The translations under genes were made by a program, and so were the position numbers. This document shows, piece by piece, positions 8,317 through 32,978 of a stretch of DNA of 33,626 nucleotides (positions are counted from its first letter, which is position 1; each line of letters starts with the position of its first letter). Under the pieces are notes generated by a model. It saw only the letters and a program-made list of their open reading frames with translations, was not told where the DNA came from and ran no database searches. This stretch comes from a virus. The stretch is taken from positions 1-33,626 of IMG/VR virus record IMGVR_UViG_3300032322_001267. The stretch is one strand, 5' to 3'.

Positions 8317-9429
8317 TTACCACCCGGTCGCCGGGAAGCGCCCGGCACGCAGCGGCTCTTGCACCGTGCGAAAGATGTCCGCGTAGGTTTGTCCCACCGT
8401 CTCCAGCCGATACCGCTGCCGCGCCAAGCTGCGCACCGTGCCGCGGTCCAGATGTCCCACCTCGTCCAGCGCCCGCGTGAAATCCGCTAGGGTGTTGCAC
8501 CGGATGCCGGTCTGCCCGTGCAGCACCGTCTCGGCGAACGCCCCGAAGTCCGACGTGATGGCGGGCGTGCCGCACAGCGCCGCCTCCACCACGGCCCCGC
8601 AGAACGGCTCCGCGTAGCGGCTCGGGGCCACGATGGCCGTGGCGTTGCCCAAGAACTCGGCCCGCTCCGTGGTCAGGGGTCCGACAAATTCGACGTTCGC
8701 GGGCGCCTCGCCGAAAGCGTCCGGGTCACCCTGTCCCGCCAGGCGGAACCGCAGGTCCGGGCGGCGCCGCGCCAGCTCCAGCACCACGCCGACGCCCTTG
8801 CCCTCGGTCAGCCGCCCAAGGAAGGCGATGTAGTCGCCCTTCCCGCGCCCGCGGGGCCACTCGTCCACGTCATAGTAGTTAGGCGCCACGAACTCCAGCC
8901 GCGGCGAGTCGAGCTGCACGCCGTGCCGCCCCTCCTTGGCCATGACGCCATGCCGCACCGCGTAGCTCTCGTAGATGCGCCACGGCAGCAGGCAGTCGTA
9001 GTACCCGATCCCCGACTCAATCGCCCCGGCGCCAGCGGCCAGCACCGGCAGCCCGCGGATGGCCGCGGCGTGCGCGTGGCCGAACGGCAGCAGGATCAGG
9101 TCGCCTGGTTCTACCCGCTCCTTGAGCTCCTCGCGGGCATACAGGTTCCACTGACGGTAGACCGGCGAGCCGTCCACGGCGTCCGCCCCGTAGAAGCCGC
9201 GCCCGACTTCGTGGTAGGCGTGGCCCAGCAGCGCCTGGTGCTCGTCCTGCTCCATCAGCACCACGTCCTCGGTCGCCCCCGTCTCGCTGCCCGCGACCCC
9301 GTAGTGTATCACGCGGTAGCCGTGCGGGAACAGCATGGGGCCGAATCGGGCGCACTTGGTCGTAAACGCACAGTGCGAAAAGTCCCGGTGCGTCACGGTA
9401 TGCGGCACGGAAAGCAGGTGCAGTTGCAT
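8317..9429 (-). CDS. GT-B fold glycosyltransferase, GT4-like (370 aa)
   Basis: The C-terminal half carries the nucleotide-sugar binding half of a GT4-type enzyme: DYIAFLGRLTEGKGVGVVLE (about residues 197-216), FRLAGQGDP, NVEFVGPLTTERAEFLGNAT, AIVAPSRYAEPFCGAVVEAALCGTPAIT with the E-x(7)-E-like segment, then GQTGIRCNTLADFTRAL. These enzymes move a sugar from an activated donor to an acceptor in the cytoplasm. ATG 9429 begins 2 bp after the stop of the large tail protein; TTG 9435 is an alternative. Position between tail and lysis genes suggests modification of virion proteins or of host surface glycans; the acceptor is unknown. Confidence 0.85.
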   Translation of the reverse strand: MQLHLLSVPHTVTHRDFSHCAFTTKCARFGPMLFPHGYRVIHYGVAGSETGATEDVVLMEQDEHQALLGHAYHEVGRGFYGADAVDGSPVYRQWNLYAREELKERVEPGDLILLPFGHAHAAAIRGLPVLAAGAGAIESGIGYYDCLLPWRIYESYAVRHGVMAKEGRHGVQLDSPRLEFVAPNYYDVDEWPRGRGKGDYIAFLGRLTEGKGVGVVLELARRRPDLRFRLAGQGDPDAFGEAPANVEFVGPLTTERAEFLGNATAIVAPSRYAEPFCGAVVEAALCGTPAITSDFGAFAETVLHGQTGIRCNTLADFTRALDEVGHLDRGTVRSLARQRYRLETVGQTYADIFRTVQEPLRAGRFPATGW

Positions 9430-9431
9430 CG

Positions 9432-12400
9432 TCAAGTCAGGAACGTACCGGCTCGAAAGCGCGACATCAGCACCGTGTCGCTGGAGCGCGCATAAACCGT
9501 CATCTGGTAGGTGGGGCTCACCCCGATAGAATAACCGCTGGTCACCGTCACCGGGCTCGTCTGGTTGGTCAGGAAGCCATCTTCCACCGTGCCGCCCGTG
9601 GTCACCGTGCGGTACTGGAGGTCGTATTGCGTGCCGCTTGGGAAGCCGCTGCCCGTCCAGCTAAACTCGTACTCGTTGGTCACATCGTCCGCGTTCTGGG
9701 TACCGATGGTAATGCTGGCCGACGTGGCGTCCTTGGCGGGGACGTTGACCGACTCGCCGATAGTGATGCTGTCCTTCGTCGCCTTGAACGAGGCCACCTT
9801 GGCCGCGCCGCTGAAGTCGTTGCGGGTGATGGTCTCGGTCCGCGGCGAGGTCCAGCCGCTTACCGATTGCGTTGCGCCATCCAGGGCGTATTCAATGGTG
9901 CCGGTCCACGTAATCGCCAGCGAATAGCTGGAGCTGCCCGGCGTGGTCACGATGTTGAGACTCGGCCCCACCCGCTCAATCGCGGGCACGTCCACCGAGT
10001 CGCTGACCGCGGCCCGGTCGGTTGCCGTCACAAGGAAGGTGATGCGCCCCGTGTTGCCGCCGATGGCGGGCCTGTCCACCGTCACATCGACGTAGCTGCC
10101 CACGGGCTCGGTGACCGTGGTGTTGGTCTCCGGGGTCACCGTCGCCGGGCTCAAGGGGATGGTCGCCGCCAGCGCGTCGGTGACCCACGAGACCGTCGCC
10201 GTATTGGGCGACAGCGCCACCGGACTGGCGACCGCCATGCGGATCGTGAGCTGCGTGCCGCTGTTGGCGACCACGCGCGCCCGCCCGATCAGGGATTGCG
10301 TGGTGGCCACCGGGGCGATGGCCACCGGGTCCGTGTCCGCCGCGTATCCGGTCGCCGTGGCCGTAAAGGTGATCATACCTGCCGGGGCGCCGACCGCAGG
10401 GCGGGGCACGTCGAAGTCGATGAAACTGAGCGCCGTTTCATTCGGGCTGGCAAAGTTGCCCGTCCCGGTGGTCACCGTGTTGCCGCTAGAGTCTGCGGGC
10501 AGGACGCCCGTGAGCCCCTGTGTGGTGTACCGGATGGTCGCCGTGGTGGCCGTGTACGGGTCCGGTACGTTCACCGCCACGCGCACCTTGGCGACCGTCG
10601 CCGTGCTGGTAGACAGCTCCCGCGCCCGCGAGATCACCGGCTTCGTATCGCGGCCCTGTTCCACGATGGTGAACGTGTCGTCGTCGGTCTCGTTCGTCAG
10701 CGTGGCCGACCGGCGCGCCTTGAACGTGGCAAAGCTGTCCCCGCTGAGCGGGGTACCGCGGTTCCAGACCCAGCTCGCTGGGGCACTCGTCCAGACCCCG
10801 ACCGCTGCGCCGCTCGACAGGCTGGCCGCGCCAGACGACGGGCCATTCAGGCCGACGAGCTGTACCTGCGCCCCCGAGATGGCGGCACCCGTGGGGTCTG
10901 TTGCGCTCACCGTGCTCGTGACCTGCGTCGGGCTGCTCGCCGACTGCACCGCCAGGCAGATGATGCCCGAGGCGCCCCGCTGGAACTGGTACTCGAAGAG
11001 CCCCGACTCCGTGCCGCCGCCGTTAATAGCGGTATACGCCAGGCACGAGACGTAGAAGATGGCCCCGATCTCGTAGGGGCCGCTGAAGGTGGCCGAATAG
11101 TTGCGGGCGTTGATCGGGGTCTGCCCCTGCGTGGTCGCGAGGTTGGGTTGGCTCGCCGTGCTGGTGGCAACCCGGATTGAAGCCGTGTCCGTATCGGCGC
11201 TGACGGCTAGTATGAAGTTGCCGTTGATCCCGAACGTCCCGACCACAGACGCCATGTCCGCCGCCGTGCCAGCGTCGAAGCTCTCAATCCCTCCCGCCAC
11301 CACGCGATCCACGCCGTCCACATCGTAGGCCGACACCTCGTATTCGATGTCAAGGAAGCCAGACGACGGCAGGATGTCGATAAGCTGGTACGGCGGCGTG
11401 GTGTCAATAACCCAAACGGACCACGCGCCGCCGTTTGTCCTGCTGCGGAACCGCACCTGCGTCAGCCGCCCTTGCGGGTCGGTGATTACCAGGGTAACGG
11501 TGCCATGAATCGCCGTTTCGGTGGTCTCGACTCGAACAATGACGCCCGTAGGCGCCGGGCGCAGCAGCTCGGCGGGCACACCCCGTGCGATTCCCGACAC
11601 TTCCCCGGTCGCCGCGCTGGTGACGAATCCGCCGAGCGCGTGCTTGGCGCGGTAGTAATAGGTGGTGCCATCACGCGGCAGCCGGTCCACATAAATGGCC
11701 GCAGAGCCGGGTACCCGGGCAATCTCGGCGAACCCGCTGCCGCTGGTCGTGCTGCGCTCAATCACAAAATCCAGCGTCTGGTCGGACGCATAGAGCCCGA
11801 GCGCGATACCCTGCTCCAGTGTGGCGTCATCCAGCAAGGGCACAAACGCAATGCCCGCCGGGCGCGTGGCCGTGCTGCCCGTCCCGCTGGTCGTCACGCT
11901 GGCGGTCGCCACCGGGCCACGCCCGGTCGGCGTGCTATAGGCGATGGCGAGCTGGTACGTGCCCGCCTCCAGCGTCCGGATCACGGTCGACGTGGAGCCG
12001 GGCGGCAGCGTGGTGACCAGGTACGGCTCCCATTGCGCCGGGGCCGAGCCGCCAAGGTAGGCAAACACGAACAGCGGGTAGGCGGTGCTGGTGTTCGTCC
12101 ACGAGATCGCCACGCTGGTGGCGGTCGTGGTGCCCACCGAGATGGCGCCCGGGGTTGGAATCGCCGTCAGGGTGACGCTGGCCCACGCCGTCCAGGCGGA
12201 TGGGCGCCGCCCCGTCTGCGTGGTCCGGGCGCGGGCATAGACCGTCACCCCCGAGCCGACCACAGCGGGAAGGTCCACCGCCCCGGTCGGCACCGTTCCG
12301 GGCGCGTAGGTGGCGAAGGCCGCGCCGTTCGTGGTCGGCGTGCTGGAGCCCGTGGCCCACTCCACTTCGACCGACAGCACCCCGCCGCTATTGATGGTCG

Positions 12401-14258
12401 CCGCGTTTGTGATGGTGAACTGCGCGATCAGGCTGGGGTGGTTGGTGTTGGCCCCGATCGTGATCGTGGCCGCAGGGCTGACGGGCTGCGCGTTGATCCC
12501 GCTGTCCAGCAGCCGAAACTGCGGCCCGGTCGGGGTCTCGGTGCGCCGGATCACCTGCATGATGCGGGCACCCACCGTGCTTTCCCCAATCCGGTAGTTG
12601 CGGTTGGGGTAGTGCGGGGCCTCCAGGTACACCTCGTCCCCGACCTGCGCCGCCGCGCTGGCCGCGCTGGCCAGCACCTGCACCTCGGCCACCGGCGAGC
12701 CGCGCCCGAACCGCGGCAGGATGCCCTGCGCGATCACGTTCAGCGTTTCGGCGGGTGTCGGCTGCCAGTCAGTCGCGGTGTGAATCATCCCCGGCACCGC
12801 GAACGTCACGTCCCGCGCCGCGAACGTGCTGGTCGCCGGGTCCACGTAGCGGCCCGTGATGCTCAGCGGCAGCGTGACCAGCCCGTCCGCCGGGATGCTG
12901 GAGCCCGTCGCCCCCGTCGGCGGCGCGCCCTGCAAGGTCGCCGGGGCCAGCGTCTGCTGCGTCAGCGTGACGGTGTTGATCGCCGTCCGCTCGTCCAGAT
13001 CAAACACCACCGGATCGGCGCTGCTCAAGTCGCCAGCCGCGATGGTCAGCGACGGCACGGCGGTCGTCAGGATGCGGGTGCCGACCAGCTCTTGGTCGCC
13101 CGCGCCGTTGGTCCGTACCGCCAGCCCAAAGGGGCCGCAGATAGCCGATTCCAGAAAGTCCACGATAACCGGCGCCTCAGTCAGCTTGAGCGCCAGCCGC
13201 ACCTGCGGGCCGACCAGATTGCGCAGGGTATTTATCCACGCGCCGCCGGTATCGTACTTCACCCGCGCCGCCGTCCAGATGGCGGTCACGATGTCCACCG
13301 GGTGCGCGTCGATGTACAGCGGGCACAGCGCCGACACCTCGCTGGTCACCAGGCTAATGGTGACCGTGTCGCCGTTCGACACCGTGGCGCTGGGCCAGTA
13401 GAAATAGAGCCGGTTATACCCCAGCGTCTCGCCCGTCAGGACGCTGGAATAGCCGCACAGCGTGGCCGTGCTCAGCGTCCCGTTGACGTAGACCAGTACG
13501 TTCCGGTAGGCCGTGACGTATTGCGACTGGCTGGACCCGAACAGCGACACCGACGCCGGGTTGGCGATGGCCCGCGCCGCGATGGTGTCTACCACCGTCT
13601 GGTTCACCAGCGGGCGCCAGTCCTTGACAATGGGCGCCCCGATGTACGGCAGATAGCCCGATTGGAACTCGGCAAACCAGTCGTCGGTCGCCCCCACCTT
13701 GTAGATCTTGTACGTCCAGCCGCCGCGGGCCACGACCGGGCCGAATGTGGTCGTTACCGGACCACCCGTCAGGCAGCCCCGGGTGGCATAGCTGCCGAGC
13801 GCGTTGCCCGTAAAGATCGGCTGCGTCTGCTCCACCCGCCGCGTATCGCCCACCGTGATGGCGTACCGCGCCGGGGCCACCAGCCGAATGGACAACACAT
13901 AGCCCGTCGTCAGGCTCGTCCAGCTCCCGCCGTTGGTTCGCGTCTCCACATACGCCCGGCGTCCCAAAAGCTGCTGAAGGTAGCCTGCGTCCTCCAGCGC
14001 GTTGGTGACCACCCGGATCGTGCCCGTCCCGTCCGTGCCCGTGGCCGCGTCGACCACCTCCACCACATACGAACCCGTCCGGGTCTGCCCCGTCACCGGG
14101 TCGATCTCCTGCCCGTCCCCGCTCGGCGGTCCCGCCAGGTACGGGTTGGTCCCGCCCGCCACACTCGAAATGCTCAGCGCGTCCGCGGTCCCGTTGGGGT
14201 CTGTGACGGTCGACGCATTGCGGATGCGCAGCCGGTACTCAATCAGGTAGTTAGGCAT
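9432..14258 (-). CDS. Large tail-tip/fibre protein with fibronectin-like domains (1608 aa)
   Basis: Residues 1 to about 600 form a hub-like region, with GSYVVEVVDAATG and YLQQLLGRRAYVETRTNG early and LTEAPVIVDFLESAICGPFG later. From about 630 onward it is a chain of beta-sandwich modules: VEWATGSSTPTTNGAAF, TTTATSVAISWTNTSTAYPL, IERSTTSGSGFAEIA with YYYRAKH are typical fibronectin type III-like strands. Two tandem copies of a module of about 110 residues sit at about 1205-1316 and 1316-1430. The last ~180 residues form another beta-rich unit. Its place after tape measure and distal tail protein matches the central tip/receptor-contact protein. The start overlaps the previous stop by 8 bp. Confidence 0.8.
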   Translation of the reverse strand: MPNYLIEYRLRIRNASTVTDPNGTADALSISSVAGGTNPYLAGPPSGDGQEIDPVTGQTRTGSYVVEVVDAATGTDGTGTIRVVTNALEDAGYLQQLLGRRAYVETRTNGGSWTSLTTGYVLSIRLVAPARYAITVGDTRRVEQTQPIFTGNALGSYATRGCLTGGPVTTTFGPVVARGGWTYKIYKVGATDDWFAEFQSGYLPYIGAPIVKDWRPLVNQTVVDTIAARAIANPASVSLFGSSQSQYVTAYRNVLVYVNGTLSTATLCGYSSVLTGETLGYNRLYFYWPSATVSNGDTVTISLVTSEVSALCPLYIDAHPVDIVTAIWTAARVKYDTGGAWINTLRNLVGPQVRLALKLTEAPVIVDFLESAICGPFGLAVRTNGAGDQELVGTRILTTAVPSLTIAAGDLSSADPVVFDLDERTAINTVTLTQQTLAPATLQGAPPTGATGSSIPADGLVTLPLSITGRYVDPATSTFAARDVTFAVPGMIHTATDWQPTPAETLNVIAQGILPRFGRGSPVAEVQVLASAASAAAQVGDEVYLEAPHYPNRNYRIGESTVGARIMQVIRRTETPTGPQFRLLDSGINAQPVSPAATITIGANTNHPSLIAQFTITNAATINSGGVLSVEVEWATGSSTPTTNGAAFATYAPGTVPTGAVDLPAVVGSGVTVYARARTTQTGRRPSAWTAWASVTLTAIPTPGAISVGTTTATSVAISWTNTSTAYPLFVFAYLGGSAPAQWEPYLVTTLPPGSTSTVIRTLEAGTYQLAIAYSTPTGRGPVATASVTTSGTGSTATRPAGIAFVPLLDDATLEQGIALGLYASDQTLDFVIERSTTSGSGFAEIARVPGSAAIYVDRLPRDGTTYYYRAKHALGGFVTSAATGEVSGIARGVPAELLRPAPTGVIVRVETTETAIHGTVTLVITDPQGRLTQVRFRSRTNGGAWSVWVIDTTPPYQLIDILPSSGFLDIEYEVSAYDVDGVDRVVAGGIESFDAGTAADMASVVGTFGINGNFILAVSADTDTASIRVATSTASQPNLATTQGQTPINARNYSATFSGPYEIGAIFYVSCLAYTAINGGGTESGLFEYQFQRGASGIICLAVQSASSPTQVTSTVSATDPTGAAISGAQVQLVGLNGPSSGAASLSSGAAVGVWTSAPASWVWNRGTPLSGDSFATFKARRSATLTNETDDDTFTIVEQGRDTKPVISRARELSTSTATVAKVRVAVNVPDPYTATTATIRYTTQGLTGVLPADSSGNTVTTGTGNFASPNETALSFIDFDVPRPAVGAPAGMITFTATATGYAADTDPVAIAPVATTQSLIGRARVVANSGTQLTIRMAVASPVALSPNTATVSWVTDALAATIPLSPATVTPETNTTVTEPVGSYVDVTVDRPAIGGNTGRITFLVTATDRAAVSDSVDVPAIERVGPSLNIVTTPGSSSYSLAITWTGTIEYALDGATQSVSGWTSPRTETITRNDFSGAAKVASFKATKDSITIGESVNVPAKDATSASITIGTQNADDVTNEYEFSWTGSGFPSGTQYDLQYRTVTTGGTVEDGFLTNQTSPVTVTSGYSIGVSPTYQMTVYARSSDTVLMSRFRAGTFLT

Positions 14259-14691
14259 AGTCGCACAGCATGTCCGCGCCCGGAGACGCCAGGTTGACCA
14301 GCGACACCGACAGGGTGTAGGTCAGGAACGTAGCGTCTTGGAACGCCAGCTCGACGGTGCCCTCCGGGTCCAGCCCGCAGGTGGCGTAGGTGCGGGCGCT
14401 GTTGTCGCTGGTCGTCACGCTGCACGTCCCGCCGCCTTGCAGGTGCCGGATCAGCCGCAAGGCGGTCCCTTGGTTGGTCGCCGGGATATCCCGCATCTCG
14501 AACCGCGCCCCGTAGTCGATGCGGAAGGTGAACATGGACCGCGCCCCGGTGGCGAGCGCCACCGCGGTGTCGCCCACCCGCCGCGTGAACGGGGTCCAGT
14601 TGGCGAAGCGCGAGCCGACCGCGCCCGCCACCCCGGTGGTGCCGTTGTCGAGCGTGGCGCTCGTGCCGTCGTTGAATCCGATGGAAGCCAT
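14251..14691 (-). CDS. Distal tail / minor tail protein candidate (146 aa)
   Basis: The gene lies 3 bp after the tape-measure stop and before the large tip protein, the classical position of a distal tail protein or gpM/gpL-like minor tail protein. The sequence is beta-rich: ASIGFNDGTSATLDNGTTG, then ARSMFTFRIDYGARFEMRDI, RLIRHLQGGGTCSVTTSDN and LTYTLSVSLVNLAS. No catalytic motif is seen. Assignment rests on order and size rather than a named domain. Confidence 0.6.
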   Translation of the reverse strand: MASIGFNDGTSATLDNGTTGVAGAVGSRFANWTPFTRRVGDTAVALATGARSMFTFRIDYGARFEMRDIPATNQGTALRLIRHLQGGGTCSVTTSDNSARTYATCGLDPEGTVELAFQDATFLTYTLSVSLVNLASPGADMLCDYA

Positions 14692-14694
14692 GGC

Positions 14695-16662: not shown

Positions 16663-16665
16663 GCG

Positions 16666-17399: not shown

Positions 17400-17962
17400 C
17401 AGACGGCGGCGAGGTACTCGATCCGGTACGGCATGTCGCCGACGTTGGCGCCCGAAACGGTCATGTCCAGCCGCGCCTCGATCTCGATGGCGATGGCGAT
17501 CTCGGCGGCGTCCTGCGAGGTCATGTCGTACTTGGTCAGCAGCGCCGCCGGAAACCGCACCTGCACGAACGCCCCCGAGCCGCGCAGCCAGATGGCCCGC
17601 ACGTCGGTCAGGTAGTCGCCCGAGGCTAGCAGCGAGCCCGCCCGCTTGCCCTGGTAGCTGGTCGAGCCGGTCCACGCGCCCGACGCCACCACGGTGGCCC
17701 CCGGCTCGATCTGGCCCACGTTCGTGGTGCTGAGCTGGATCATGGTCCCGGTCAGCTTGGGCATGGTCGCCGCCTTGCGGTCCAGCCCGCGCACGGGCGA
17801 GCGGCGCCCGTCGAACTCGATGGCCCGGTACTCGGTGCCGGGGTCGAACTTGAGCCCGCCGGTCATCGCGCCCAGCACGCTGGAGCCGATGTACAGGACG
17901 CCCGAGTCCAGCAGGACGTCGGTCGGGAGCGAGCTGGTGTAGCCAGTCAGTGGGGCAGTCAC
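17399..17962 (-). CDS. Major tail tube protein (187 aa)
   Basis: GTG 17962 follows GAGGTGA, a strong ribosome-binding site, after one of the few intergenic gaps of the operon, as expected for an abundant protein. The sequence is beta-rich with TGYTSSLPTDVLLDSGVLYI, GGLKFDPGTEYRAIEFDGRR, AATMPKLTGTMIQLSTTNVG and RFPAALLTKYDMTSQDAAEI followed by IAIEIEARLDM. This pattern matches phage tail tube subunits, which stack in rings to make the tail. Context agrees: tail terminator upstream, chaperones downstream. Confidence 0.8.
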   Translation of the reverse strand: MTAPLTGYTSSLPTDVLLDSGVLYIGSSVLGAMTGGLKFDPGTEYRAIEFDGRRSPVRGLDRKAATMPKLTGTMIQLSTTNVGQIEPGATVVASGAWTGSTSYQGKRAGSLLASGDYLTDVRAIWLRGSGAFVQVRFPAALLTKYDMTSQDAAEIAIAIEIEARLDMTVSGANVGDMPYRIEYLAAV

Positions 17963-18044
17963 GGGTCACCTCGGTGGTTGGGGTCGCCGCTGGGGAAGCT
18001 ATCGGGCGCAGCGGCACGCGCCCACGGCTGGCACGTGGCCACAG
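17963..18044 (-). other. Intergenic gap with small GC hairpin before the tail-tube gene
   Basis: This 82-bp gap is one of the largest in the late operon. It holds a 6-bp hairpin GGGCGC/GCGCCC (18004-18009 with 18018-18023, 8-nt loop) and the palindrome GTGGCCAC near 18035-18042. No clear promoter is seen, although TTGACT occurs without a matching -10. The hairpin could protect the 5' end of a processed transcript for the highly expressed tail-tube gene, or act as a partial terminator; neither is proven. Confidence 0.35.
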
Positions 18045-23095: not shown

Positions 23096-23109
23096 CGTTC
23101 CCCCTTGGG

Positions 23110-23664: not shown

Positions 23665-24104
23665 CAGGCGAAAGCCTCGTCGAAGGCGGAAGAAAACTCG
23701 TCGGTGGTCACCAGATGCACGCCGTCCAGCGTGGGCAGCGCCTCAAAGCCCGCGAACTCCACCGCGTCGGTCGGGGCCACCGCCTCCAGGTCAAGCCGCT
23801 GCGACCGGAGCTGCCGCTGCGGCACCACGCCCCGCACCCAATAGACGGCCTCGTCCCCCTCCAGCCGCACGAGCCCCGCCAGCGGCACCGGCACATAGTC
23901 CGCCACCGTGGCCCGCGCCGTGGTGCGGTACGAAATGTGGCTTTGCGGGTCGGTGCCCACGTTCTGGCCGTCGCTGATGGCGTCTATGCGGCCCCAATAG
24001 GTGCCTTGGTAGGCGTAGACCGGGCGCATGAACCCGTCCGCGCCCGCGTCCTCGCGTGCCCACAGGCTCACCCGCTGGTCCAGCCGCCCCGCCACCATGG
24101 TCAT
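23664..24104 (-). CDS. Head-tail joining (head closure) protein candidate (146 aa)
   Basis: ATG 24104 overlaps the upstream connector stop (ATGA). The N-terminus AGRLDQRVSLWAREDAGADG FMRPVYAYQGTYW fits the opening strand motif of phage head-tail joining proteins (L-x-x-R-V-x-[LIF]...D-G-[FY]-x-x-P-x-x-x...W). It is followed by further strands (ADYVPVPLAGLVRLEGDEAV, YWVRGVVPQRQ) and a C-terminal tail ending SSAFDEAFA. These proteins close the portal after packaging and dock the tail. The size agrees with the family. Confidence 0.75.
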   Translation of the reverse strand: MTMVAGRLDQRVSLWAREDAGADGFMRPVYAYQGTYWGRIDAISDGQNVGTDPQSHISYRTTARATVADYVPVPLAGLVRLEGDEAVYWVRGVVPQRQLRSQRLDLEAVAPTDAVEFAGFEALPTLDGVHLVTTDEFSSAFDEAFA

Positions 24105-24661
24105 TGGGCCACCCCCAGCCGGAACAGGCGCAGGCTCTTGACCACCCGCGCCACCGTCTCCCGGCTCGCGTCCCAGCTTATCGTGGTGTCGCCCGCCTTC
24201 TCGCTGGCCGCGCCCGGGGTGCGGCGCTGGTACAGGTCGGCAGCAAGGTCCAGAATCATCTCGGTCAGCAGCGGCTCGATGCGCGCATAGTCCGACCGCA
24301 GGGACAGGCCGCAGCTCGCGGTTATCGTATACGGCCCGTTATAGAAACTGGTCAGCGGCTTGGCATAGATCATGCCTGACGCCCCATACACGGTATACGT
24401 GGTCGGGTCCACGGTCGCGCCCTCGCTGTCGGTGATGCTGACCGACGCAATCGGACGCCGCGGGAAGATCAGGCTGGTGACCGGCTCGTCCAGCGACTCG
24501 GCCCGGTCTACCGCGGTCTGGCTCTCGGCGGTGATCGGGCAGTCGATCCACCCCTCCACCATCGCCTGCGCCCGCGCCACCAGCGCGGCCAGCAGCGCGT
24601 TCTCCGCGTTGGTCTCGATCCGCAGGTACGTCTTGAGGTCGGTGCTAGTCGGCAGCGCCAC
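24101..24661 (-). CDS. Head-tail connector (gp6-like adaptor) (186 aa)
   Basis: Start GTG 24661 lies 17 bp inside the glycosyltransferase gene, and longer in-frame readings are its shadow. Residues 3-40 (ALPTSTDLKTYLRIETNAEN, LLAALVARAQAMVEGWIDCP) match the N-terminus of gp6-type connectors: D-L-K-x-Y-L-R-I-x-x-x-x-[DE]-[ND]-x-L-[IL]. A beta section (SLIFPRRPIASVSITDSEG, TVDPTTYTVYGASGMIYAK) and a C-terminal helix (IEPLLTEMILDLAADLYQRR) complete the fold. The protein forms the ring under the portal. Confidence 0.82.
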   Translation of the reverse strand: MALPTSTDLKTYLRIETNAENALLAALVARAQAMVEGWIDCPITAESQTAVDRAESLDEPVTSLIFPRRPIASVSITDSEGATVDPTTYTVYGASGMIYAKPLTSFYNGPYTITASCGLSLRSDYARIEPLLTEMILDLAADLYQRRTPGAASEKAGDTTISWDASRETVARVVKSLRLFRLGVAQ

Positions 24662-26030
24662 GGACGGCCTCGCGCAGGATGGTGGCGTACTTGGCCCCGA
24701 CGACCGGGTAGTCGTGGTGGGCCACGGTGTAATCGTATACGCGGCGCGCCTCGGCGGCGTAGTGGCCACTGTCAACGCACAGCCGCCGCACCGCCTCGCG
24801 CAGCTCCTCGCGGCTGTCGGCAAACGTCCACGGGCACGGGATGCCCAGCTTCGCCAGGTCGTCCACGGCGCCATGATCGCCCGCGATGACCGGCAGCCCC
24901 ATCGCCGCGCCCTCCAGCCCCGAGCCCTGCATACCGAGCCAGAAAGAGTCGAACACCACGTGGCACGTGGCCTTGAGCGCCAGCGCCTCGCCGTGGCTCA
25001 TGTCCTCGATCAGCACCGGCTCCACGGGCAGGCCGTAGTCCTTGAGATAGCCCATGACGGCCAAGAAGTCCGACGTGCCCTTGATCTCGCGCCGGGTCGG
25101 GCTGTGCGCCACGCGCAGCCGCCCGCCTTCCCACGGCGGCGGGTAGCGCGTCACGCTCGCCCGCAGCGCCTGGTAATTCTTCACGGGCATCGGGATCGGC
25201 AGCCAATGCTCCACCCCGTGCCGGTGGTGGTAAGGCCGCGCCCCGAACGTCACGCTGCGCAGCTTCTCGTCCGTGTCCCGGTCGCGGTACGTCACCCGCG
25301 GGTCGCCCGGGGGCAGGCTACCGTGGTAGGTCACCGCCACCCGCTGCCGCTCGGTCGGGGCTACCCGCAGCTTTTGGAACAGGCCGCGGTAGTCCATGTG
25401 GCAGTGAATCACGTCAGCCGTCGCGGCCAGCACGTCCACCGTCACCCGGTGGGCGTCCCCGTCCCACTGCCGCCAGTGGCAGTGCGGGTTGGTATAGTCG
25501 TAGCGTACCAGCGCCGACAGCACGCCCGGGGCCGTGTTGGCCGCGGAATGATAGCGGTAGACCGAGCTCCCCGGATCGTACTCGGTGATCTGGAGCACGC
25601 GCAGCGCGTCCGGGGTCGGGTCCGCCGCGGTGTAGTGCTCGGGCACCTCCGGGGGCGACAAGATCCGCCCCGTCCCGCCCCACAGGCGAGCGATGCCCGC
25701 CTCGTCCACCACCAGCGCGTTCGTGGCCAGCCCCGGGGACATCTGTGTGGCGGCCTCCTCGAACGCGGCCCGCAGGCTGGCGCCCATCGCCCACGCCATC
25801 GGATGCGACAGCACCAGCCCCCACTGCACCAGATCGCCCACCCGGTCGGCGGGCACCTCGAACACCTCCCGCGCCGCACGCCGCACGCCACCAATGATGC
25901 AGGGCTGGATCGCCATGACCTTGGCCGCGGCGGGCGCGGGCGTCGGGGGCACTACGGCCTCGGCCACCGGGGGGAGCGCCCCGGTGGCCTTGGCCTTCCT
26001 GCTTGCCGCCTTACGAGCTGGCGGGGACAT
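24645..26030 (-). CDS. Glycosyltransferase with N-terminal phage domain (461 aa)
   Basis: ATG 26030 lies 20 bp inside the capsid gene end. Residues 1-37 are Lys/Ala/Pro-rich. Residues about 38-75 (MAIQPCIIGGVRRAAREVFE, VPADRVGDLVQWGLVLSHP) look like a small domain often encoded on its own next to phage capsid genes. Residues about 140-450 look like a GT-B enzyme: LRVLQITEYDPGSSVYRYHS, ADVIHCHMDYRGLFQKL, RVAVTYHGSLP in the N-half; GRLRVAHSPTRREIKGTSDF, CHVVFDSFWLGMQGSGLEGA with AMGLPVIAGDHGAVDDL in the C-half. A sugar-transfer role, perhaps on the capsid, is inferred. Donor and acceptor unknown. Confidence 0.8.
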   Translation of the reverse strand: MSPPARKAASRKAKATGALPPVAEAVVPPTPAPAAAKVMAIQPCIIGGVRRAAREVFEVPADRVGDLVQWGLVLSHPMAWAMGASLRAAFEEAATQMSPGLATNALVVDEAGIARLWGGTGRILSPPEVPEHYTAADPTPDALRVLQITEYDPGSSVYRYHSAANTAPGVLSALVRYDYTNPHCHWRQWDGDAHRVTVDVLAATADVIHCHMDYRGLFQKLRVAPTERQRVAVTYHGSLPPGDPRVTYRDRDTDEKLRSVTFGARPYHHRHGVEHWLPIPMPVKNYQALRASVTRYPPPWEGGRLRVAHSPTRREIKGTSDFLAVMGYLKDYGLPVEPVLIEDMSHGEALALKATCHVVFDSFWLGMQGSGLEGAAMGLPVIAGDHGAVDDLAKLGIPCPWTFADSREELREAVRRLCVDSGHYAAEARRVYDYTVAHHDYPVVGAKYATILREAVRGAAD

Positions 26031-27369
26031 CCAGCACGACGAACGGGCTGTGCGGATCGACCTTCACGCCCGCCACCGTCTTGTAGGCGTAGGTGGACGT
26101 GGGGATCGGGATGCCGCCACCACGCGCCAGGAAGCGATACGTGGTGATATCCTGCACGAACTTCACGTGGATCGAGCTCTCCACCGTCAGGGCCTGCCGC
26201 AGCCCCATGGCGTAGAAGTCGCCGTTGACCAGCGCCACGTCCCCCTTGGTGCCCAGCGAGTTGAGCAGATCGGTGACGATGACCGGCAGCCCGAGGAGCA
26301 GCATGGTGGGACGGTCCCGCAGGTTCGCGATCCAGGTGACCATCGTGTTGTTCGTGGTCTGCATCGCGAAGAGCTGCGCCAGCACCCGGCGCGAGATCAT
26401 CCACGCCGAGTTGGGGCCGATGGTGTGGCGCTCGTACATGGCGAAGGCGTCCGCCGCGACGAACTGGTTCGACGTGGTGCGGTTGACCGAGATCAGCGCG
26501 CCGTTGTTGCTGTTGAGCGCGCCGAGCGGCTGGGACGAGCCCGTGCCGTCGATGGTCAGGTCTTCGTTCAGCTTGTTGATGATCTGCCCGCCGACCGCCG
26601 TGGTGACCTCGCTGGGCAACTCGCCCGTGAAGTCGTCACCGAGAATTTCGTCGCCGAACTCGGTGATGGCGGCGTACTTGTAGATCTCCAGCAGCCGCTG
26701 GCCGAACACCGGGTCGCGCTCCGGCTTGGTCCCGCCCTCGCCCACGATCGTCACGTTCGCGATCTTACCCGCCATCGGGCGGTTCAGGGTGGTCGTGCCC
26801 TCGTCCTGGATCAGGTACGGGATGCGCAGCGACCGGCCCGGGACGTTGTACCGGCGGGCGTACTGGAAGATGCCCGGCTGGGCGTTGCTGACCGAGAAGA
26901 TCTCGGGCACCTGCGTCAGCGGCAGGAGGTACTCGCCGCCCGACGTGGAGCCGGTGATCGTGCGGGTCATCTCGGCCACGCGGCGCAGCCCCTCGATCTC
27001 GCGGGCGTTCTTGGTCCCCTTGGCCGCGGCGCGCAGGTAGGCGCCGAGCGTCGGGAAGTGGTTCACCAGCACCTTCTTGACGTCCTCCATGGCGTCCTTC
27101 ATGCCGCGGAACTCGGTCCGCTCGGCCTCGCCGCCCACGTCCACGCGGGTCAGCCCCTCGGCCCCGCCCTGCCGGTCAATCTCGGCGTCGGGCGTGAACT
27201 CCGCCGCGGCCTGCGCCCGCATCTCCAGCGCCACGATCCCGTCCGTGCGCGCCTTCACCTCGTCCGCGCTCAGCGTGAGCGCGGGGTCCATCAGCTCGGC
27301 GCGCAGCTTCTGCGCCTGAGCGCGCAGCTCGTTCGCGGCGCGGTTCTTGGTCACCAGCGTGTTCTGCAT
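26011..27369 (-). CDS. Major capsid protein, HK97 fold (452 aa)
   Basis: ATG 27369 follows a near-perfect GGAGGAGACG and gives the expected layout; an upstream in-frame start would overlap the protease gene. Residues 1-120 form a charged helical delta/scaffold segment (RAANELRAQAQKLRAELMDP, LSADEVKARTDGIVALEMRA) of the type removed by the prohead protease. The capsid fold follows: TRTITGSTSGGEYLLPLTQV, IFQYARRYNVPGRSLRIPYL, KYAAITEFGDEILGDDFTGE, LNEDLTIDGTGSSQPLGAL, AWMISRRVLAQLF, LLLGLPVIVTDLLNSLGTKG and the closing VDPHSPFVVLDVPASS. It builds the icosahedral shell. Confidence 0.92.
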   Translation of the reverse strand: MQNTLVTKNRAANELRAQAQKLRAELMDPALTLSADEVKARTDGIVALEMRAQAAAEFTPDAEIDRQGGAEGLTRVDVGGEAERTEFRGMKDAMEDVKKVLVNHFPTLGAYLRAAAKGTKNAREIEGLRRVAEMTRTITGSTSGGEYLLPLTQVPEIFSVSNAQPGIFQYARRYNVPGRSLRIPYLIQDEGTTTLNRPMAGKIANVTIVGEGGTKPERDPVFGQRLLEIYKYAAITEFGDEILGDDFTGELPSEVTTAVGGQIINKLNEDLTIDGTGSSQPLGALNSNNGALISVNRTTSNQFVAADAFAMYERHTIGPNSAWMISRRVLAQLFAMQTTNNTMVTWIANLRDRPTMLLLGLPVIVTDLLNSLGTKGDVALVNGDFYAMGLRQALTVESSIHVKFVQDITTYRFLARGGGIPIPTSTYAYKTVAGVKVDPHSPFVVLDVPASS

Positions 27370-27382
27370 CGTCTCCTCCAGT

Positions 27383-28171
27383 CTATACGGAATAGGTCTG
27401 CCGCACGGCTGCGAGCCGGTCGGCCATCGTGACCGCGGCATCCTCGCGGGCTGGCGGCGGCGTGGGCGGGGCGCAGCAATCCGTGCGCGTGCCCGGGGCC
27501 ACATCGTCCAGGTACGGGGAAGCGTAGGCATCCAGCACCGCCTGCCGGTCGGTGACGCTCAGGGCGTCGAGCGCCGTGCGGGCGGCAATCATGAGCAGGT
27601 CGCGGTCCGTGCGCACGGAGTCGCGGGGCTGCTCGGGAACATCGGTGGTGCTCTTGTCGCTGCGCGCCCCCAGCACGTCGGTGCCGGGGACGCTGGGCAT
27701 CGGGGTCAGGCTGACCTCGCGCAGCTCGATTTCGAGGAACCGATCGACGGTCTTGCCGTCCACCACGGCCATCTCGGTGCGCTTGGGGACGAACCCGATC
27801 GACAGCCCGGTGACGGCGCCCGCGGCCATGACGGCCTTCACGTAGTCCCGCGCTGCGCGCCCCGCCTCGGTGTCGAACAGGTCGGCCACCATGACCAGCC
27901 CGTCGCCCGTGTCGGTCAGGCTGGCGACCACGCCGACGTGGGCGTCCACCTCGCGCTCGTGGTCCATCAGGAAGGGGACGCGCCGCGCCTTGACCTTGGT
28001 GTCAATGGTCCGCTTGGCGCAGCCCCGGGCGAAGACGGTCCCGTAGGTGTCCACCTGCTCGTAGGTCAGGGCCACGCCGGTAATGCGCCCCGCGATCCCC
28101 TCGGGCAGTCCTTCCTGGCGGGCTTCGAGCGCCACCTCGCGGCGGTACAGCGTCACGGTGTCGATGGTCAT
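27383..28171 (-). CDS. Prohead maturation protease, HK97 family (262 aa)
   Basis: The enzyme cleaves the capsid delta domain during maturation. The family motifs are present: GRITGVALTYEQVDTYGTVF at the start, FLMDHEREVDAHVGVV with catalytic His71, then FDTEAGRAARDYVKAVMAAG, VTGLSIGFVPKR with catalytic Ser124 and EIELREVSLTPMPSVPGTDV. The residues after about 165 form a flexible C-terminal tail, including a paired Cys (TRTDCCAPPTPPPAREDA). ATG 28171 overlaps the portal stop (ATGA); a longer in-frame start is rejected. Neighbours portal and capsid confirm the role. Confidence 0.9.
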   Translation of the reverse strand: MTIDTVTLYRREVALEARQEGLPEGIAGRITGVALTYEQVDTYGTVFARGCAKRTIDTKVKARRVPFLMDHEREVDAHVGVVASLTDTGDGLVMVADLFDTEAGRAARDYVKAVMAAGAVTGLSIGFVPKRTEMAVVDGKTVDRFLEIELREVSLTPMPSVPGTDVLGARSDKSTTDVPEQPRDSVRTDRDLLMIAARTALDALSVTDRQAVLDAYASPYLDDVAPGTRTDCCAPPTPPPAREDAAVTMADRLAAVRQTYSV

Positions 28172-31062
28172 AGGACGCCCTGCGCCTCCTCGGGGGTCTC
28201 GGTGTAGTAGACTAGGGTGCAGCGGCAGTTGATGACCTCGCCAGCGGGGCCGCGTGGGTCCAGCGGGTACAGCAGGCCGTTGCCGAACGGGTCGTCGATG
28301 CCGATGGGCGGCTGGGCGCCCGCGGCGGCGTGCGTCGGGCGGGTCTTGCGGTCCTCGAAGGCCAACCATTGCTTGGCCCGGAACAGGTCGCCTTCGGCCT
28401 TCGCTTGGTCCCACGAGCCCTGCGACTGCGCGCCCGCCACCTCGGTCTTGGCGATCCGCGTGGCCCGCACGTCGGTCATCTGCTCGCCGTACACGCTGGC
28501 CTGAATCAGCCGCGCCGTCTCGGCCACGCTCAGCTCGGCCAGCTCGGCGCTGCGGATCGCCGCAGTGACCTGCTTCGCGGTCGTCTCCCCGATCAGCTCG
28601 GCCAGCCGGTCGGCCCGGTTGGCGATGGCCTGTAGCACGCTGGGCGGCTTGAGCCCGAAGCTATAGCCTGCGCCCATGACCTCCTGCGCGCCGAAGAGGT
28701 ACATGCGCTCGATCAGCTCCAGATACGCGGCCCGCCACGCGGCGTAGTATTCCCCGCCCCGGGCGTAGTTTTCCCGGATCTGCCGCTCGATGGCGTCCAG
28801 CACGGGGTCGTCCGCTCGGGTCGCCCGGTCAAACAGCCGCGCCACGGACGCCGCGTCCTCGCGGAACCGGGCGCGGGCGGTCGTATAGAATGGCGCCTCC
28901 TGCCGGTCCATCTCCTCCATCTGCCGCACCCAATAGCGGTACAGGATGTGGTCCTCGTCGGGCTCGCCGTCCTCGCGGTAGAGCGGGGCGCGCAGCACCT
29001 CGGGATGGTGGACCCACCACGGGCGCCCCTGCTCGTCTACCAGGGGGCTGGCATTCCGTACCGGCGCACCAGCGGGAGCCGGTGCCGCATCGTCCGCTGC
29101 CACCGCCGCCACGGCGACACGCGCCGATAGGGCGGCACCACCTGCCGGAACACGTTGCGCCGCACGGTCAAGCGCCTCCTTGGCTTCGTTGATGACGGCC
29201 CGCATCCCATCCAGCCCGATGTCGCCCACCACGAGCCACTTCACCTGGGCGATCACGCCCGCAATCCGCTTGTTCCCCCGGTGCCTCGCCCCCCACGCCT
29301 CGCGCAGCCGCACGGCCCGCTCCTCGGCGGGGCTGTTGGGCGCGCCGCCACGCTTGGCCAGCGGGGCCAAGATGGCGAACTGCCGGTTGCCGCGGACGTT
29401 GCCGCCCTTGCGCCAGATTTCGGGGTACTCGCGCTTCAGGGTCTCGGCCTCGCCCACGGGGAAGCGCCCCCACTGGCTGTTGCGCAGGCTGACGGCCTTG
29501 TCGTCCCCCTTGGCGGGGAAGTCCGTCGCCGGGTCGGCGCGATCCTCCTCCTCGTCGTCCAGCTCGTCGTCGTCCTCGTCGTCCTCGTCCTCCAGCTCCT
29601 CCTCGTCCGTCTCGCCCTGCAACGCCGGGGGCGGGCCGTCCTGCGCGGGGGCCTGCTCCATGACCGCCCGCGGGTCGATCACGGCCACCGCGGCGGGGGT
29701 CAGCGTGGCCCCGGCGGTGACCAGAATCGTGTCGGTGGGCTCAGGGATCGGGGACAGCCGCAGCGCCCGCCGCGACTCCTCCCACGTCCGGAGTCCGTCG
29801 CGGAACTCGGCCCGCACGCGGGTGCTCGTGGCGCTGTCGTCCTCGACCAGCTCGCGCAGCAGATCATGGTCGTAGGTGATCCACACGTCCCCGAACTCGG
29901 GGGCCAGCCAGTGGTTCAGCTCGTCCTCGATCGCGGCCAGCATGGGCTCGATGGTGTGCTGCACCAGCCGTGCCCGCGCCTCGACATACTGCGCGCCCGA
30001 CAGCCCGGCGTCGGACGTGGCGCTCGCGATCCCGATCATCCGCGGGTCCACCCCGAAGGCGGCGCAGATGTCCTCGCGGGACACCCGGCGCAAGTCGGGG
30101 AACTCCAGGTCGGACAGCGTGAACCCCAACGGCTTGATGTCGCGCACGGCCCCGAAGAACGCAGGCGTGCCCCGCTTGCCGCGGTCGACCACGCGGGCCT
30201 TGTAGCGGTCCTGCATGGCGGTGGCGTCATCCTGCGTGGCCTCGTCGGCCAGCAGCACGGCGAACGTGGGGGTGCCGTCGTTGGTCACCACCTGGCGCAC
30301 GTACTTGGTGGCCTCGTTGTCTGCCGCGATGGACGCCAGCGCCGTGGCGCCCCGGGGGAACCCGAAGGCGTCGGGCGTGAAGGGGCGCGGCATCTCCAGG
30401 TCGCGGACGTGGATGATGTCCGCCACGTCCCGCTGCACGATGATCCCCGACCAGTTGGCGTAGTCGTACCGCCGCGGGTCGCCGTCCGCGTCCACCCACA
30501 CCGACTGAAGCGACTCGGGGTTGATCGCCCCCAGCCGCCGCGGCAGGCCGACGCCGGACGGGCCGCGGTCCATCTCCAGCATGGCGTTGCCGTAGCCCAG
30601 AAAATCAATCGCCAGCCGCGCGCGCATGGTGCGGGCGGTGAACCGGGGGCCGGGGTAGTCCAGCAGCCGCTGGAGCGGGTGCGACTCGGGCACGCGGCTC
30701 TCGTAGTCGCCCCGGGCGCGCAGCACGACGAGCGGCACCGACGCCACCACGTCGGCGATCACGCGCATACACGCATGGACGACCGGGTGCTTGCTGAACC
30801 CTTCGGCCCGGATGCTGGCGCCTTCCGGCTTGTACTCCTGCGGATTGGCCGTGCGCACCAGCGACATCTGGGGCGTCCCGCTGGCCAGCCCGTTGGGCGG
30901 CTGCCCGCTGCTTCCGGCGATGGCCGGGAAGTTGGGGTACACCAGCGGGATCACGGCGCGGCTTGCGTCGGGCGCGGTGATGTCCCCGCGCAGCGCCTTC
31001 AGGGCGAGCCCCACGCGCTCGCGCAGGGTCGGGACGGCCACAGGGGCCGGGGCGTCAGCCAT
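28168..31062 (-). CDS. Portal protein fused to MuF-type head morphogenesis domain (964 aa)
   Basis: Residues about 60-460 are an HK97-type portal (SKHPVVHACMRVIADVVASV, PLQRLLDYPGPRFTARTMRA, DIIHVRDLEM, GLSGAQYVEARARLVQHTIE). The portal is the dodecameric DNA gate of the capsid. An acidic Asp/Glu run (about 485-507) leads to KAVSLRNSQWGRFPVGEAET and a ~110-residue helical domain (NVRGNRQFAILAPLAKRGG, then AGVIAQVKWLVVG, about 515-635). The C-terminus (about 866-954) is a Mu gpF-like domain: ATRIAKTEVAGAQSQGSWDQ, WLAFEDRKTRPTHAAA and GEVINCRC. Usual portals have about 400-550 residues, so this is a fusion. Start ATG 31062 is preferred; GTG 31080 is possible, and neither has a strong SD. Confidence 0.88.
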   Translation of the reverse strand: MADAPAPVAVPTLRERVGLALKALRGDITAPDASRAVIPLVYPNFPAIAGSSGQPPNGLASGTPQMSLVRTANPQEYKPEGASIRAEGFSKHPVVHACMRVIADVVASVPLVVLRARGDYESRVPESHPLQRLLDYPGPRFTARTMRARLAIDFLGYGNAMLEMDRGPSGVGLPRRLGAINPESLQSVWVDADGDPRRYDYANWSGIIVQRDVADIIHVRDLEMPRPFTPDAFGFPRGATALASIAADNEATKYVRQVVTNDGTPTFAVLLADEATQDDATAMQDRYKARVVDRGKRGTPAFFGAVRDIKPLGFTLSDLEFPDLRRVSREDICAAFGVDPRMIGIASATSDAGLSGAQYVEARARLVQHTIEPMLAAIEDELNHWLAPEFGDVWITYDHDLLRELVEDDSATSTRVRAEFRDGLRTWEESRRALRLSPIPEPTDTILVTAGATLTPAAVAVIDPRAVMEQAPAQDGPPPALQGETDEEELEDEDDEDDDELDDEEEDRADPATDFPAKGDDKAVSLRNSQWGRFPVGEAETLKREYPEIWRKGGNVRGNRQFAILAPLAKRGGAPNSPAEERAVRLREAWGARHRGNKRIAGVIAQVKWLVVGDIGLDGMRAVINEAKEALDRAAQRVPAGGAALSARVAVAAVAADDAAPAPAGAPVRNASPLVDEQGRPWWVHHPEVLRAPLYREDGEPDEDHILYRYWVRQMEEMDRQEAPFYTTARARFREDAASVARLFDRATRADDPVLDAIERQIRENYARGGEYYAAWRAAYLELIERMYLFGAQEVMGAGYSFGLKPPSVLQAIANRADRLAELIGETTAKQVTAAIRSAELAELSVAETARLIQASVYGEQMTDVRATRIAKTEVAGAQSQGSWDQAKAEGDLFRAKQWLAFEDRKTRPTHAAAGAQPPIGIDDPFGNGLLYPLDPRGPAGEVINCRCTLVYYTETPEEAQGVL

Positions 31063-31111
31063 GGTCCGAACGCTAGGCACAGCGTCTGCCGTGCGCCACC
31101 CGTGCAGTTGA

Positions 31112-32362
31112 CTAGACCACGAACGCTTGGACCTGCTTGAGCATCAAGCTCGACAGCGCCCAGACCAGCGCGTCCACGCGGTCGGGGCTGCCGTCCATGG
31201 CGTCGGGGCGGAAGCTGCTCATCTGCTGCTCGAGGATCGGGAGCTGCCCGACGTGGAACACTCGCCCTTCTTGGTACAGCGCATAGACCGGCTCGGCGCG
31301 GGCCAGCTTTCCCTTCGTGGCCCGGACAGCGACGATGCGGACGCCGTGCGCCTTGTCACCTTGCGCGGCCAGCACGCTGCGGACCATGTCACCGCCTTGG
31401 TTGACCTCGGCCACGATGCTTCCGCCCCACCGCCGCGCAGCGTCGATGGCGACCGCGCCCCATTGCGCGGGGCTATAGCGCCCGCTCAGGTCCTCTAGGA
31501 CGTACCCCCGCTTGTCGCGCCCCAGCCCGACGACGACGATGCCCGTCTCGTTGCTCGCCGTGTTGGCCGTGACGGCGGGGTCCACGCCCACCAGCACGCG
31601 GGCGAAGGTGTCGGGGGCCTGCTCGACGCGCGCTCGCACAATGTCTGCCCCCGTCCACAGCAGCCCCTCGGTGGCGTGCGTCCACTCGCCGAGAAAGACG
31701 TGCCGGTAGCGCTGCGGGTTGGTATCGCGCAGCCGCTCGGCCTGCTCAATGAAGCTAGGCGAAAGGTTGTGGGCGTTCTGCTCGTAGGTGGTGTGGATGT
31801 ACAGCGTGTCGTCCCGCCGCGCGGCCACGAACCGCTCATAGAGAAAGTGCGTCCGCGCGGCCGGGTTGAGGACGAGGACCACGCGGTTCGGGCGGTCTAC
31901 CTGGCGTATGCTATAGTCGATCGTATCGAAGCTTTTCGGGTCCACCAGCTCCTCGGCCTCGTCCAGAACCCAGGTCGTCACGCCCTGAATCGACTTGAGC
32001 CGCGCCGATTGGTTGCCGCTGCTGGTCTTGATGCCGCGGAACAGGATGGCCGAACCGGTGCGCCGGTTGCGGATCGTGTCGCGCGTCACGTCGAAGTCAT
32101 CCGCCAGCCCAAGCAGGTCGATCTTGTCTACAAACTCAGGGATGATCGAAATGCTGGCCGCGACCATCGTCCAGCGGGTAAACAGGATGACGTGCCCCGC
32201 CTCGTAGGTGAGGTTGAGCAGGAACAGCGCGATGTGGAATGACTTGCCCCCGCCGCGCCCGCCCGTCAGGAAGGCATAGCGCCACGCGGGGGCGGGGTTA
32301 AACAGCGGCTGGTAGGCGCTCAGCAGCTCCAGCGGGCGGGGCTCACCCGGCGCGCTGCTCAT
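31112..32362 (-). CDS. terL: Terminase large subunit (416 aa)
   Basis: The motor-nuclease packages DNA through the portal. The ATPase half shows the Walker A LTGGRGGGKSF (about 33-42), FTRWTMVAASISIIPEFV, the Walker B VTTWVLDEAEEL (128-139, D134/E135) and LVLNPA coupling motif (163-168). The nuclease half shows ARVLVGVDPAVTANTASNET (D261), VLEDLSGRYSP (D291) and GSPDRVDALVWAL (D394/D397), the three acidic sites of the RNase H-like fold. Start ATG 32362 overlaps the methyltransferase gene by 20 bp; an earlier in-frame start (32422) is less likely. No intein or interruption is seen. Confidence 0.93.
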   Translation of the reverse strand: MSSAPGEPRPLELLSAYQPLFNPAPAWRYAFLTGGRGGGKSFHIALFLLNLTYEAGHVILFTRWTMVAASISIIPEFVDKIDLLGLADDFDVTRDTIRNRRTGSAILFRGIKTSSGNQSARLKSIQGVTTWVLDEAEELVDPKSFDTIDYSIRQVDRPNRVVLVLNPAARTHFLYERFVAARRDDTLYIHTTYEQNAHNLSPSFIEQAERLRDTNPQRYRHVFLGEWTHATEGLLWTGADIVRARVEQAPDTFARVLVGVDPAVTANTASNETGIVVVGLGRDKRGYVLEDLSGRYSPAQWGAVAIDAARRWGGSIVAEVNQGGDMVRSVLAAQGDKAHGVRIVAVRATKGKLARAEPVYALYQEGRVFHVGQLPILEQQMSSFRPDAMDGSPDRVDALVWALSSLMLKQVQAFVV

Positions 32363-32978
32363 CCATATAGATGGTGAGGATGTGATCGGTGGCCGGTCGC
32401 GCCCAGCTATAGCGCAGGCCACGCGCGGTCAGCCACGCCTCTAGGCGCGAGCGGCTGTAGACATTGCAATAGGTGCCGTGGGCGAGCGTGCGGTCAATGA
32501 CCACCGAGTCTTGCTCGCCCTCCCCGAGCTGGAAGAACACCACGATGACGGCGCGGCGCGCATGGGCCAGCAGCGTCTCCAGCGCGTTGTGGTAGCCGGG
32601 CAGGTGCTCCAGCACATGCCGGCAATATGCCACGTCAGCCTGCCCGTAGTGGTCGACGCTGGCGATGCTGCCGATCGCCACCTTGGCCCCCAACCCCTGC
32701 CCGTAGGCGACCAGCTCGGGGGTAAGCTCCACGGCCCGGTAGCCGATCCACGGGTGGGCGCGCCAATACGTCTGGTAGTCAAGGAACGTGCCGGGGCCGA
32801 ACTCCAGCACGGTCTTGGCCCCGAGCGTCTCCACCTGCTGGAACACGGCGCGGCGGCTGTGCGGGTCCGATTGCTCCAGCCAGCCCGCGAAGGTGCTGCC
32901 GGTGATACCGTGCGCGGCGATGTGGTGCGACCACCAGACTTCATGTGACGCGCGCGAGGCGCTGGTTGGCTCGGTCAC
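32343..32978 (-). CDS. SAM-dependent methyltransferase (211 aa)
   Basis: A class I methyltransferase fold is indicated by motif I TVLEFGPGTFLD (about 56-67, the SAM-binding glycine loop), acidic residue in YRAVELTPELV (motif II), GSIASVDHYGQADVAYCRHV with LEHLPGYHNALE (motif IV/V region) and HARRAVIVVFFQL. There is no NPPY or DPPY typical of DNA adenine methyltransferases and no PC motif of cytosine enzymes, so DNA is not the clear substrate; small molecule, sugar or protein methylation is more likely. The HVLEHLP motif resembles enzymes acting on glycans or small molecules. GTG 32978 overlaps the small terminase stop (GTGA). Confidence 0.8.
   Translation of the reverse strand: MTEPTSASRASHEVWWSHHIAAHGITGSTFAGWLEQSDPHSRRAVFQQVETLGAKTVLEFGPGTFLDYQTYWRAHPWIGYRAVELTPELVAYGQGLGAKVAIGSIASVDHYGQADVAYCRHVLEHLPGYHNALETLLAHARRAVIVVFFQLGEGEQDSVVIDRTLAHGTYCNVYSRSRLEAWLTARGLRYSWARPATDHILTIYMDEQRAG

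Follow-up and report, generated by a model that had tools for sequence, protein, structure and literature searches.

A putative GT-B glycosyltransferase encoded next to the capsid gene is matched by a C-terminal capsid serine in an uncultured phage family

To our knowledge, glycosylation of the virion has been demonstrated for few phages. In the mycobacteriophages Che8, Corndog and Myrna it is attributed to phage-encoded transferases (Freeman et al. 2023, as relayed in passages of PMC12363180, PMC12619734 and PMC11256854), and the reported glycans are placed, in portions of two of these accounts, on the C-terminal ends of capsid and tail-tube proteins (PMC12619734, PMC12363180). Here we analyze a 33,626-base virus record from IMG/VR (IMGVR_UViG_3300032322_001267, hereafter the window), which encodes two glycosyltransferase-like proteins, GT1 and GT2, and a methyltransferase among its structural genes, and for which an earlier note had proposed a single three-enzyme set adding and methylating sugars successively on capsid and tail proteins. 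We favor, with a probability of roughly 0.55, a reading in which the phage glycosylates its own particle by means of two enzymes with separate targets, GT2 modifying the C-terminus of the major capsid protein (MCP) and GT1 modifying a large tail protein, g22.

The likeness to the mycobacteriophages lies in the protein ends, as the Che8 capsid and tail-tube proteins, glycosylated according to sections of those reports, both end in Gly-Ser, and the window MCP also ends in Ser. Given that glycosylation of capsid and tail-tube proteins by phage glycosyltransferases is reported in parts of PMC12363180 and PMC12619734, the earlier description of the window system as undescribed is too strong. The enzymes themselves differ: Che8 gp108-110 gave no significant match to models of GT1, GT2 or the methyltransferase (best E-value 0.007, gp108 against the methyltransferase) and are encoded at the far end of the Che8 genome, whereas window GT2 is a GT-B protein carrying a fused small domain, and its gene belongs to the head operon. 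Because gp108-110 are unrelated to GT1 and GT2 by these models, the GT2 system would represent a parallel solution rather than the same enzyme family. A further difference is that the tail-tube C-terminus, the second site in mycobacteriophages, is not matched in relatives of the window; when a tail-tube acceptor was sought, g18b was found to end in YLAAV, with no constant terminal Ser or Thr among its relatives. A search of open-licence papers found no description of a fusion between a head gene and a glycosyltransferase, nor of a C-terminal Ser rule.

The MCP (26011..27531, minus strand), our proposed GT2 acceptor, is of the HK97 type (Pfam PF05065, 4.6e-20; TIGR01554, 1.5e-30), its true start probably lying downstream of the first start codon. 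GT2 (24645..26030, minus strand), whose start region overlaps the MCP end by 20 nucleotides (nt), is a fusion of a disordered 36-residue lead (disorder being predicted for residues 1-31), a small head-module domain (approximately residues 37-76; 25803..25922, minus strand) and a GT-B domain (approximately residues 142-457; 24660..25607, minus strand). With the MCP rather than GT2 as the anchor of the scan, the slot after the MCP in the best 80 of 178 loci is occupied by the full fusion in 68, by the small domain alone in two (L162, L169) and directly by the head-tail adaptor in five; it is cut off in the other five (L131, L153, L172, L024 and L143, the last two ending before the GT-B domain). 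The small domain also stands alone after the MCP in records G004 and G026. From these three slot states it follows that the small domain is a gene of its own in the place where other phages carry the fusion; it weakly resembles phrog_2616 (E-values of 0.008 for the L105 copy and 0.11 for the L250 copy). GT2 was found in scans down to about 40% identity, and in all distant relatives with visible context it lies between the MCP and the adaptor, except in L109 and L110, where it follows the adaptor.

The state of this slot is matched by a single residue of the MCP tail. Tails were collected by a motif scan with the pattern KVxxHSPFVxLD, yielding 96 distinct sequences among the matches listed, a non-exhaustive sample to which the following counts refer. 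In all 64 distinct MCPs with GT-B downstream, Ser occupies position +4 of HSPFVxLDxxxS; it does so in 0 of 27 distinct MCPs without GT-B (16 with the small domain alone, 11 with an empty slot), where Ala, Thr or Gly is present or the residue is missing. Five of the 96 tails are cut and were left unscored, so that Ser and GT-B agree in all 91 scorable distinct tails. The corresponding window residue is Ser505 (codon at 26017..26019, minus strand), at +4 of LDVPASS, and we propose it as the O-glycosylation site. An example of a Ser-type tail is HSPFVVLDVPASS, and one of a GT-less tail is HSPFVVLDEPAA; the tail of L197, where GT-B is present, ends in EPAS, as against EPAA or EPGA in the phages with the small domain only.

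As the MCP tail adjoins the slot, recombination can transfer the two as a single block, and the Ser could then be a marker of that block rather than an acceptor. L260 has the look of such a recombinant, its MCP body lying near the small-domain clade but its tail being DATS and its slot holding GT-B. We nevertheless consider linkage alone unlikely. The 13 distinct GT-B tails vary at +1, +2, +3 and +5 yet keep Ser at +4, even in the distant MCPs L101 and L296, and none of the seven distinct GT-less tails has it. Position +4 is moreover the sole MCP tail position in perfect agreement with GT-B, its neighbors on the same block falling short, and among 300 control columns of the MCP body none agrees perfectly, the best reaching 0.895 (base rate 0.709). 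The codons point the same way in their variety, the +4 Ser in GT-B rows being written in both codon families (TCN in 49, AGC in 15).

The match was also followed along an MCP-body tree, computed without the tail on 86 scorable rows (five of the 96 were too short, namely L252, L205, L236, L302 and L324, and five more had no GT-B state). All 86 rows agree, 61 with GT-B and Ser and 25 with neither, and on the best tree the presence of GT-B changes about five times and Ser likewise about five. The well-supported branches contain two independent pairs, both concordant for GT-B and Ser.

Several observations weigh against Ser505 as an acceptor. Only two of the switches are well supported, giving a sign test p of 0.5, and with so few switches the independent-pairs test cannot reach significance. 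Two types of GT-less tail have Thr at +4, and the most distant GT2 carriers (L102, L103, L105 and L106), which fall outside the motif sample, end in FVYLQ or FVYLN and lack the Ser. Most GT-B rows also have an MCP tail that runs into the GT2 start, a possible constraint on the tail. This overlap fails to explain the Ser, however, because 20 of the 64 GT-B rows keep it with no GT2 ATG within the final 24 nt of the MCP gene (other start codons being possible), and because the small-domain-only clade retains the MCP overlap and yet has Ala at +4.

The assignment of GT2 as an enzyme relies mostly on its predicted fold. Its Pfam match (9e-4) is under the cut-off, and a Protein Data Bank sequence search at an E-value of 1 returned no match for GT2 or the methyltransferase. 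A structure model built on 22 relatives (predicted local distance difference test, pLDDT, 82) has the GT-B fold and matches GT-B/GT4 enzymes (Foldseek, 1.7e-11), with many GT4 hits and with GT4 types as the best matches; viral matches of GT2 mostly carry a transferase annotation. An alignment of 22 diverse GT2 sequences has 60 invariant columns, the putative donor-site residues and a DSFWLGxQGSGxE stretch being nearly invariant, and Arg314, Glu373 and, in most rows, Lys317 of the GT-B domain are conserved. Examined for the E-x7-E motif, GT2 retains the second Glu (Glu373) and is missing the first, for which reason it could be inactive, a further point against glycosylation of the capsid. We thus class GT2 as a GT-B protein rather than a confirmed GT4 member, with sugar transfer as its putative activity. 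Taken together with the fusion to a small head-module domain, the absent Glu would also suit a catalytically dead fold serving the head as a structural or chaperone component, with the Ser tail as its binding site; we deem this improbable, as the near-invariance of the putative donor site and of the DSFWLGxQGSGxE stretch exceeds what a scaffold needs.

T4 alpha-glucosyltransferase is also among the GT-B matches of GT2, and the transferases could by analogy glycosylate phage DNA against host nucleases, a role frequently suggested for transferases of aquatic phages in portions of PMC10202952 and PMC7029224. Plain GT4 enzymes match GT2 better than the T4 enzyme does, however, and the genes sit with those for the MCP and tail. 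Of the window genes that were searched, in a record that may be incomplete, none was recognized as encoding a base hydroxylase, a hydroxymethylase or a nucleotide kinase, and modification of DNA would leave the MCP Ser match unexplained, making this reading highly improbable.

The third enzyme (32343..32978, minus strand), between the genes for a DUF5681 protein and the large terminase subunit (TerL), is a class I S-adenosylmethionine (SAM) methyltransferase of the small-molecule O-methyltransferase type. It matches Pfam Methyltransf_23 above the cut-off (1.8e-8), carries SAM motif I in a VLEFGPG stretch within a Rossmann fold, and its structure model (pLDDT 72) matches small-molecule O-methyltransferases (RedM, 7.8e-10). 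No DNA methyltransferase is named among the 50 structure matches listed. Relatives are found at the same place, between DUF5681 and TerL, down to 35-44% identity. In whole records with TerL of the window type, window included, GT2 and the methyltransferase are both present in nine (the window, G006, G013, G014, G015, G023, G024, G028 and G030) and both absent in six (G001, G003, G025, G031, G032 and G033, of which G032 and G033 are 10-kb fragments), with none mixed. All six appear to belong to one MCP clade, so that the link amounts essentially to one joint loss, which lessens its weight for the proposed pathway. Elsewhere, G040 has no methyltransferase and a cut GT2 slot, G037 has GT2 with the methyltransferase region off the contig, and the foreign-TerL records G002, G005, G007, G008 and G022 keep GT2 without a methyltransferase of the window type. 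The large terminase is foreign or undetected in these five and in G009 despite the same MCP and tail genes, which suggests that exchange of the packaging module also removed the methyltransferase in these six. As the methyltransferase was found only in phages with GT2, we propose that it may cap the GT2 product, a guess to which this pattern lends modest support.

In a further reading the enzymes would alter host surface glycans and so block superinfection or change the receptor, as proposed for other phages in parts of PMC10202952 and PMC7029224, and the methyltransferase could act on cell-envelope sugars. We regard this as decidedly improbable in view of the late position of the genes, their coupling to those for the MCP and tail, the fusion of GT2 to a small head-module domain and the MCP Ser match.

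On the tail side, GT1 (8317..9429, minus strand), a GT4-type glycosyltransferase of the phrog_3408 family, directly follows g22 (9432..14258, minus strand), a Ser/Thr-rich tail protein of 1608 residues and the proposed GT1 acceptor. GT1 matches Pfam models well above their cut-offs (PF13692, 65.5 bits against 27; PF00534, 64.7 against 26.4), with E-values of 8e-18 for Glyco_trans_1_4 and 8e-52 for phrog_3408, and carries the E-x7-E motif (Glu276/Glu284 in P0001 numbering), both Glu being invariant across an alignment of 14 sequences. With the tail protein g18b as anchor, a scan gave 76 loci; the slot is visible in 30, and in the other 46 it is off the contig or g22 is unseen. GT1 follows g22 in 29 of the 30 visible loci and is thereby tied to it, the exception being L240, a whole record with g22 and no GT1.

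Five relatives (L038, L039, L050, L188 and L225), with Gly-x-Thr repeats in g22, have a second GT1-family gene directly before GT1. Among 32 distinct g22 proteins, two GT1 copies coincide with a collagen-like g22, all five having 53-89 collagen-like triplets rich in Gly-x-Thr and the other 27 having no collagen-like run of six or more, although some single-copy rows have a GT1 truncated where the contig stops, so that another copy might have escaped notice. The additional copies in L188 and in L217/L050 do not form one clade (approximately unbiased test, p 0.007, with long branches), from which it appears that the pairing of an extra GT1 with a collagen-like g22 arose twice. A parallel is offered by SgtA, which according to portions of PMC7157674 places O-linked N-acetylglucosamine on Thr of the collagen repeats of BclA3 in Clostridioides difficile spores; BclA3 is, by contrast, a spore protein unconnected with phages, and window g22 has no collagen repeats. 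The pairing and this parallel together indicate g22 as the acceptor, and on the strength of such sequence patterns GT1 probably modifies g22. Telling against this is that g22 of the window itself lacks the repeats; a common C-terminal acceptor was sought on g22 and none was found, the g22 ends varying widely among relatives.

Cyanophages carry relatives of GT1 in a comparable setting: the phrog_3408 enzymes S-CBWM1 gp122, ACG-2014f gp018 and S-CAM7 gp016 are, among the matches listed, 31-39% identical to GT1 over 96% of its length and adjoin tail-fibre genes, as GT1 adjoins a tail gene. ACG-2014f differs in having a collagen-repeat protein and a 2-oxoglutarate (2OG)-Fe(II) oxygenase nearby, whereas window g22 is free of repeats and no oxygenase was found in the window. 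The three ACG-2014f genes lie together (L071, 2178-7666) and possibly form a fibre cassette for hydroxylation followed by glycosylation.

All window genes assigned with confidence are on the minus strand, beginning with DUF5681, the methyltransferase and TerL, continuing through the portal (with its head-morphogenesis end), the MCP, GT2, the adaptor, the head closure and fibre genes, the tail proteins and the tape measure to g22 and GT1, and ending with lysis and replication genes; DUF5681, TerL, portal, MCP, adaptor, tail fibre, tape measure and amidase were identified with PHROGs and Pfam. The earlier note correctly located the three enzyme genes, which are open frames with the codon-position guanine-plus-cytosine pattern of real genes and with the Pfam, PHROGs or fold matches given above, and it was also right about their coupling to the structural genes with which they share a strand, since each overlaps or nearly overlaps the gene upstream: besides the GT2 overlap, the GT1 ATG (9429) is two bases past the g22 stop, and the GTG start of the methyltransferase overlaps the stop of its upstream gene. 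Of the flanking genes, that for the DUF5681 protein (32975..33337, minus strand; Pfam, 2.4e-16) lies upstream of the methyltransferase, and TerL (31112..32422, minus strand; Pfam Terminase_3, 1.2e-26; start codon uncertain) overlaps the methyltransferase end. The head-tail adaptor (24101..24874, minus strand; phrog_442, 5.7e-20; start codon likewise uncertain) follows GT2, or directly the MCP where GT2 has been lost. The portal is apparently fused to the head-morphogenesis domain in a single gene with a product of 970 residues (28168-31080), and a tail fibre (20681-22657) contains repeated TARxINGVSFNGTADITVTA stretches. A genome scan led to two contigs of metagenome-assembled genomes, a 3.8-kb 'Actinomycetales' contig and a 38-kb 'Burkholderiales' contig, and each of them may be phage DNA that was binned wrongly; the latter (L249) encodes an MCP 63% identical to that of the window.

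The idea of virion glycosylation thus gains real support for the capsid, where the slot states and the Ser match make it the best reading, and it finds no corresponding pattern at the tail-tube C-terminus; a joint three-gene set acting on capsid and tail is not borne out. The three genes part company in relatives, with GT1 present without GT2 and the methyltransferase in G001, G003 and G025 (one clade), and GT2 present without a GT1 match in G017, G018, G020 and G021, so that neither successive action on the same substrates nor co-inheritance of the three families is supported.

Building on the computed folds, gene places, slot states and Ser/GT-B match, we infer the following course. GT2 would be made together with the capsid protein and, probably held at the head precursor by its N-terminal domain, would move a sugar from a host nucleotide sugar onto the Ser505 hydroxyl during assembly, so that many C-termini of the shell would come to bear a glycan. 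The methyltransferase would then probably cap the capsid sugar with a methyl group, and GT1 would act separately on the adjoining g22. Any benefit, such as shielding of the particle or altered adsorption, is conjectural. In a fuller version, which we offer tentatively as possible though rather doubtful in its entirety, a GT2 tethered to the capsid by a shell-docking small domain would decorate a self-encoded one-Ser sequon, LDxxxS, on all capsid subunits before the sugar is methylated; once the enzyme is lost, the Ser would be lost in turn, making the two a matched enzyme-site pair, and a parallel tail pair of an extra GT1 and a Thr-rich collagen-like g22 would have been gained at least twice.

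If GT2 does glycosylate the MCP tail, the sequences of this uncultured phage family would disclose an enzyme together with the precise residue that it modifies, as well as cases where nature has lost both. Glycosylation of capsid C-termini would then have arisen in unrelated phages with unrelated enzymes, and a terminal Ser with an adjacent transferase would provide a rule for spotting further cases.

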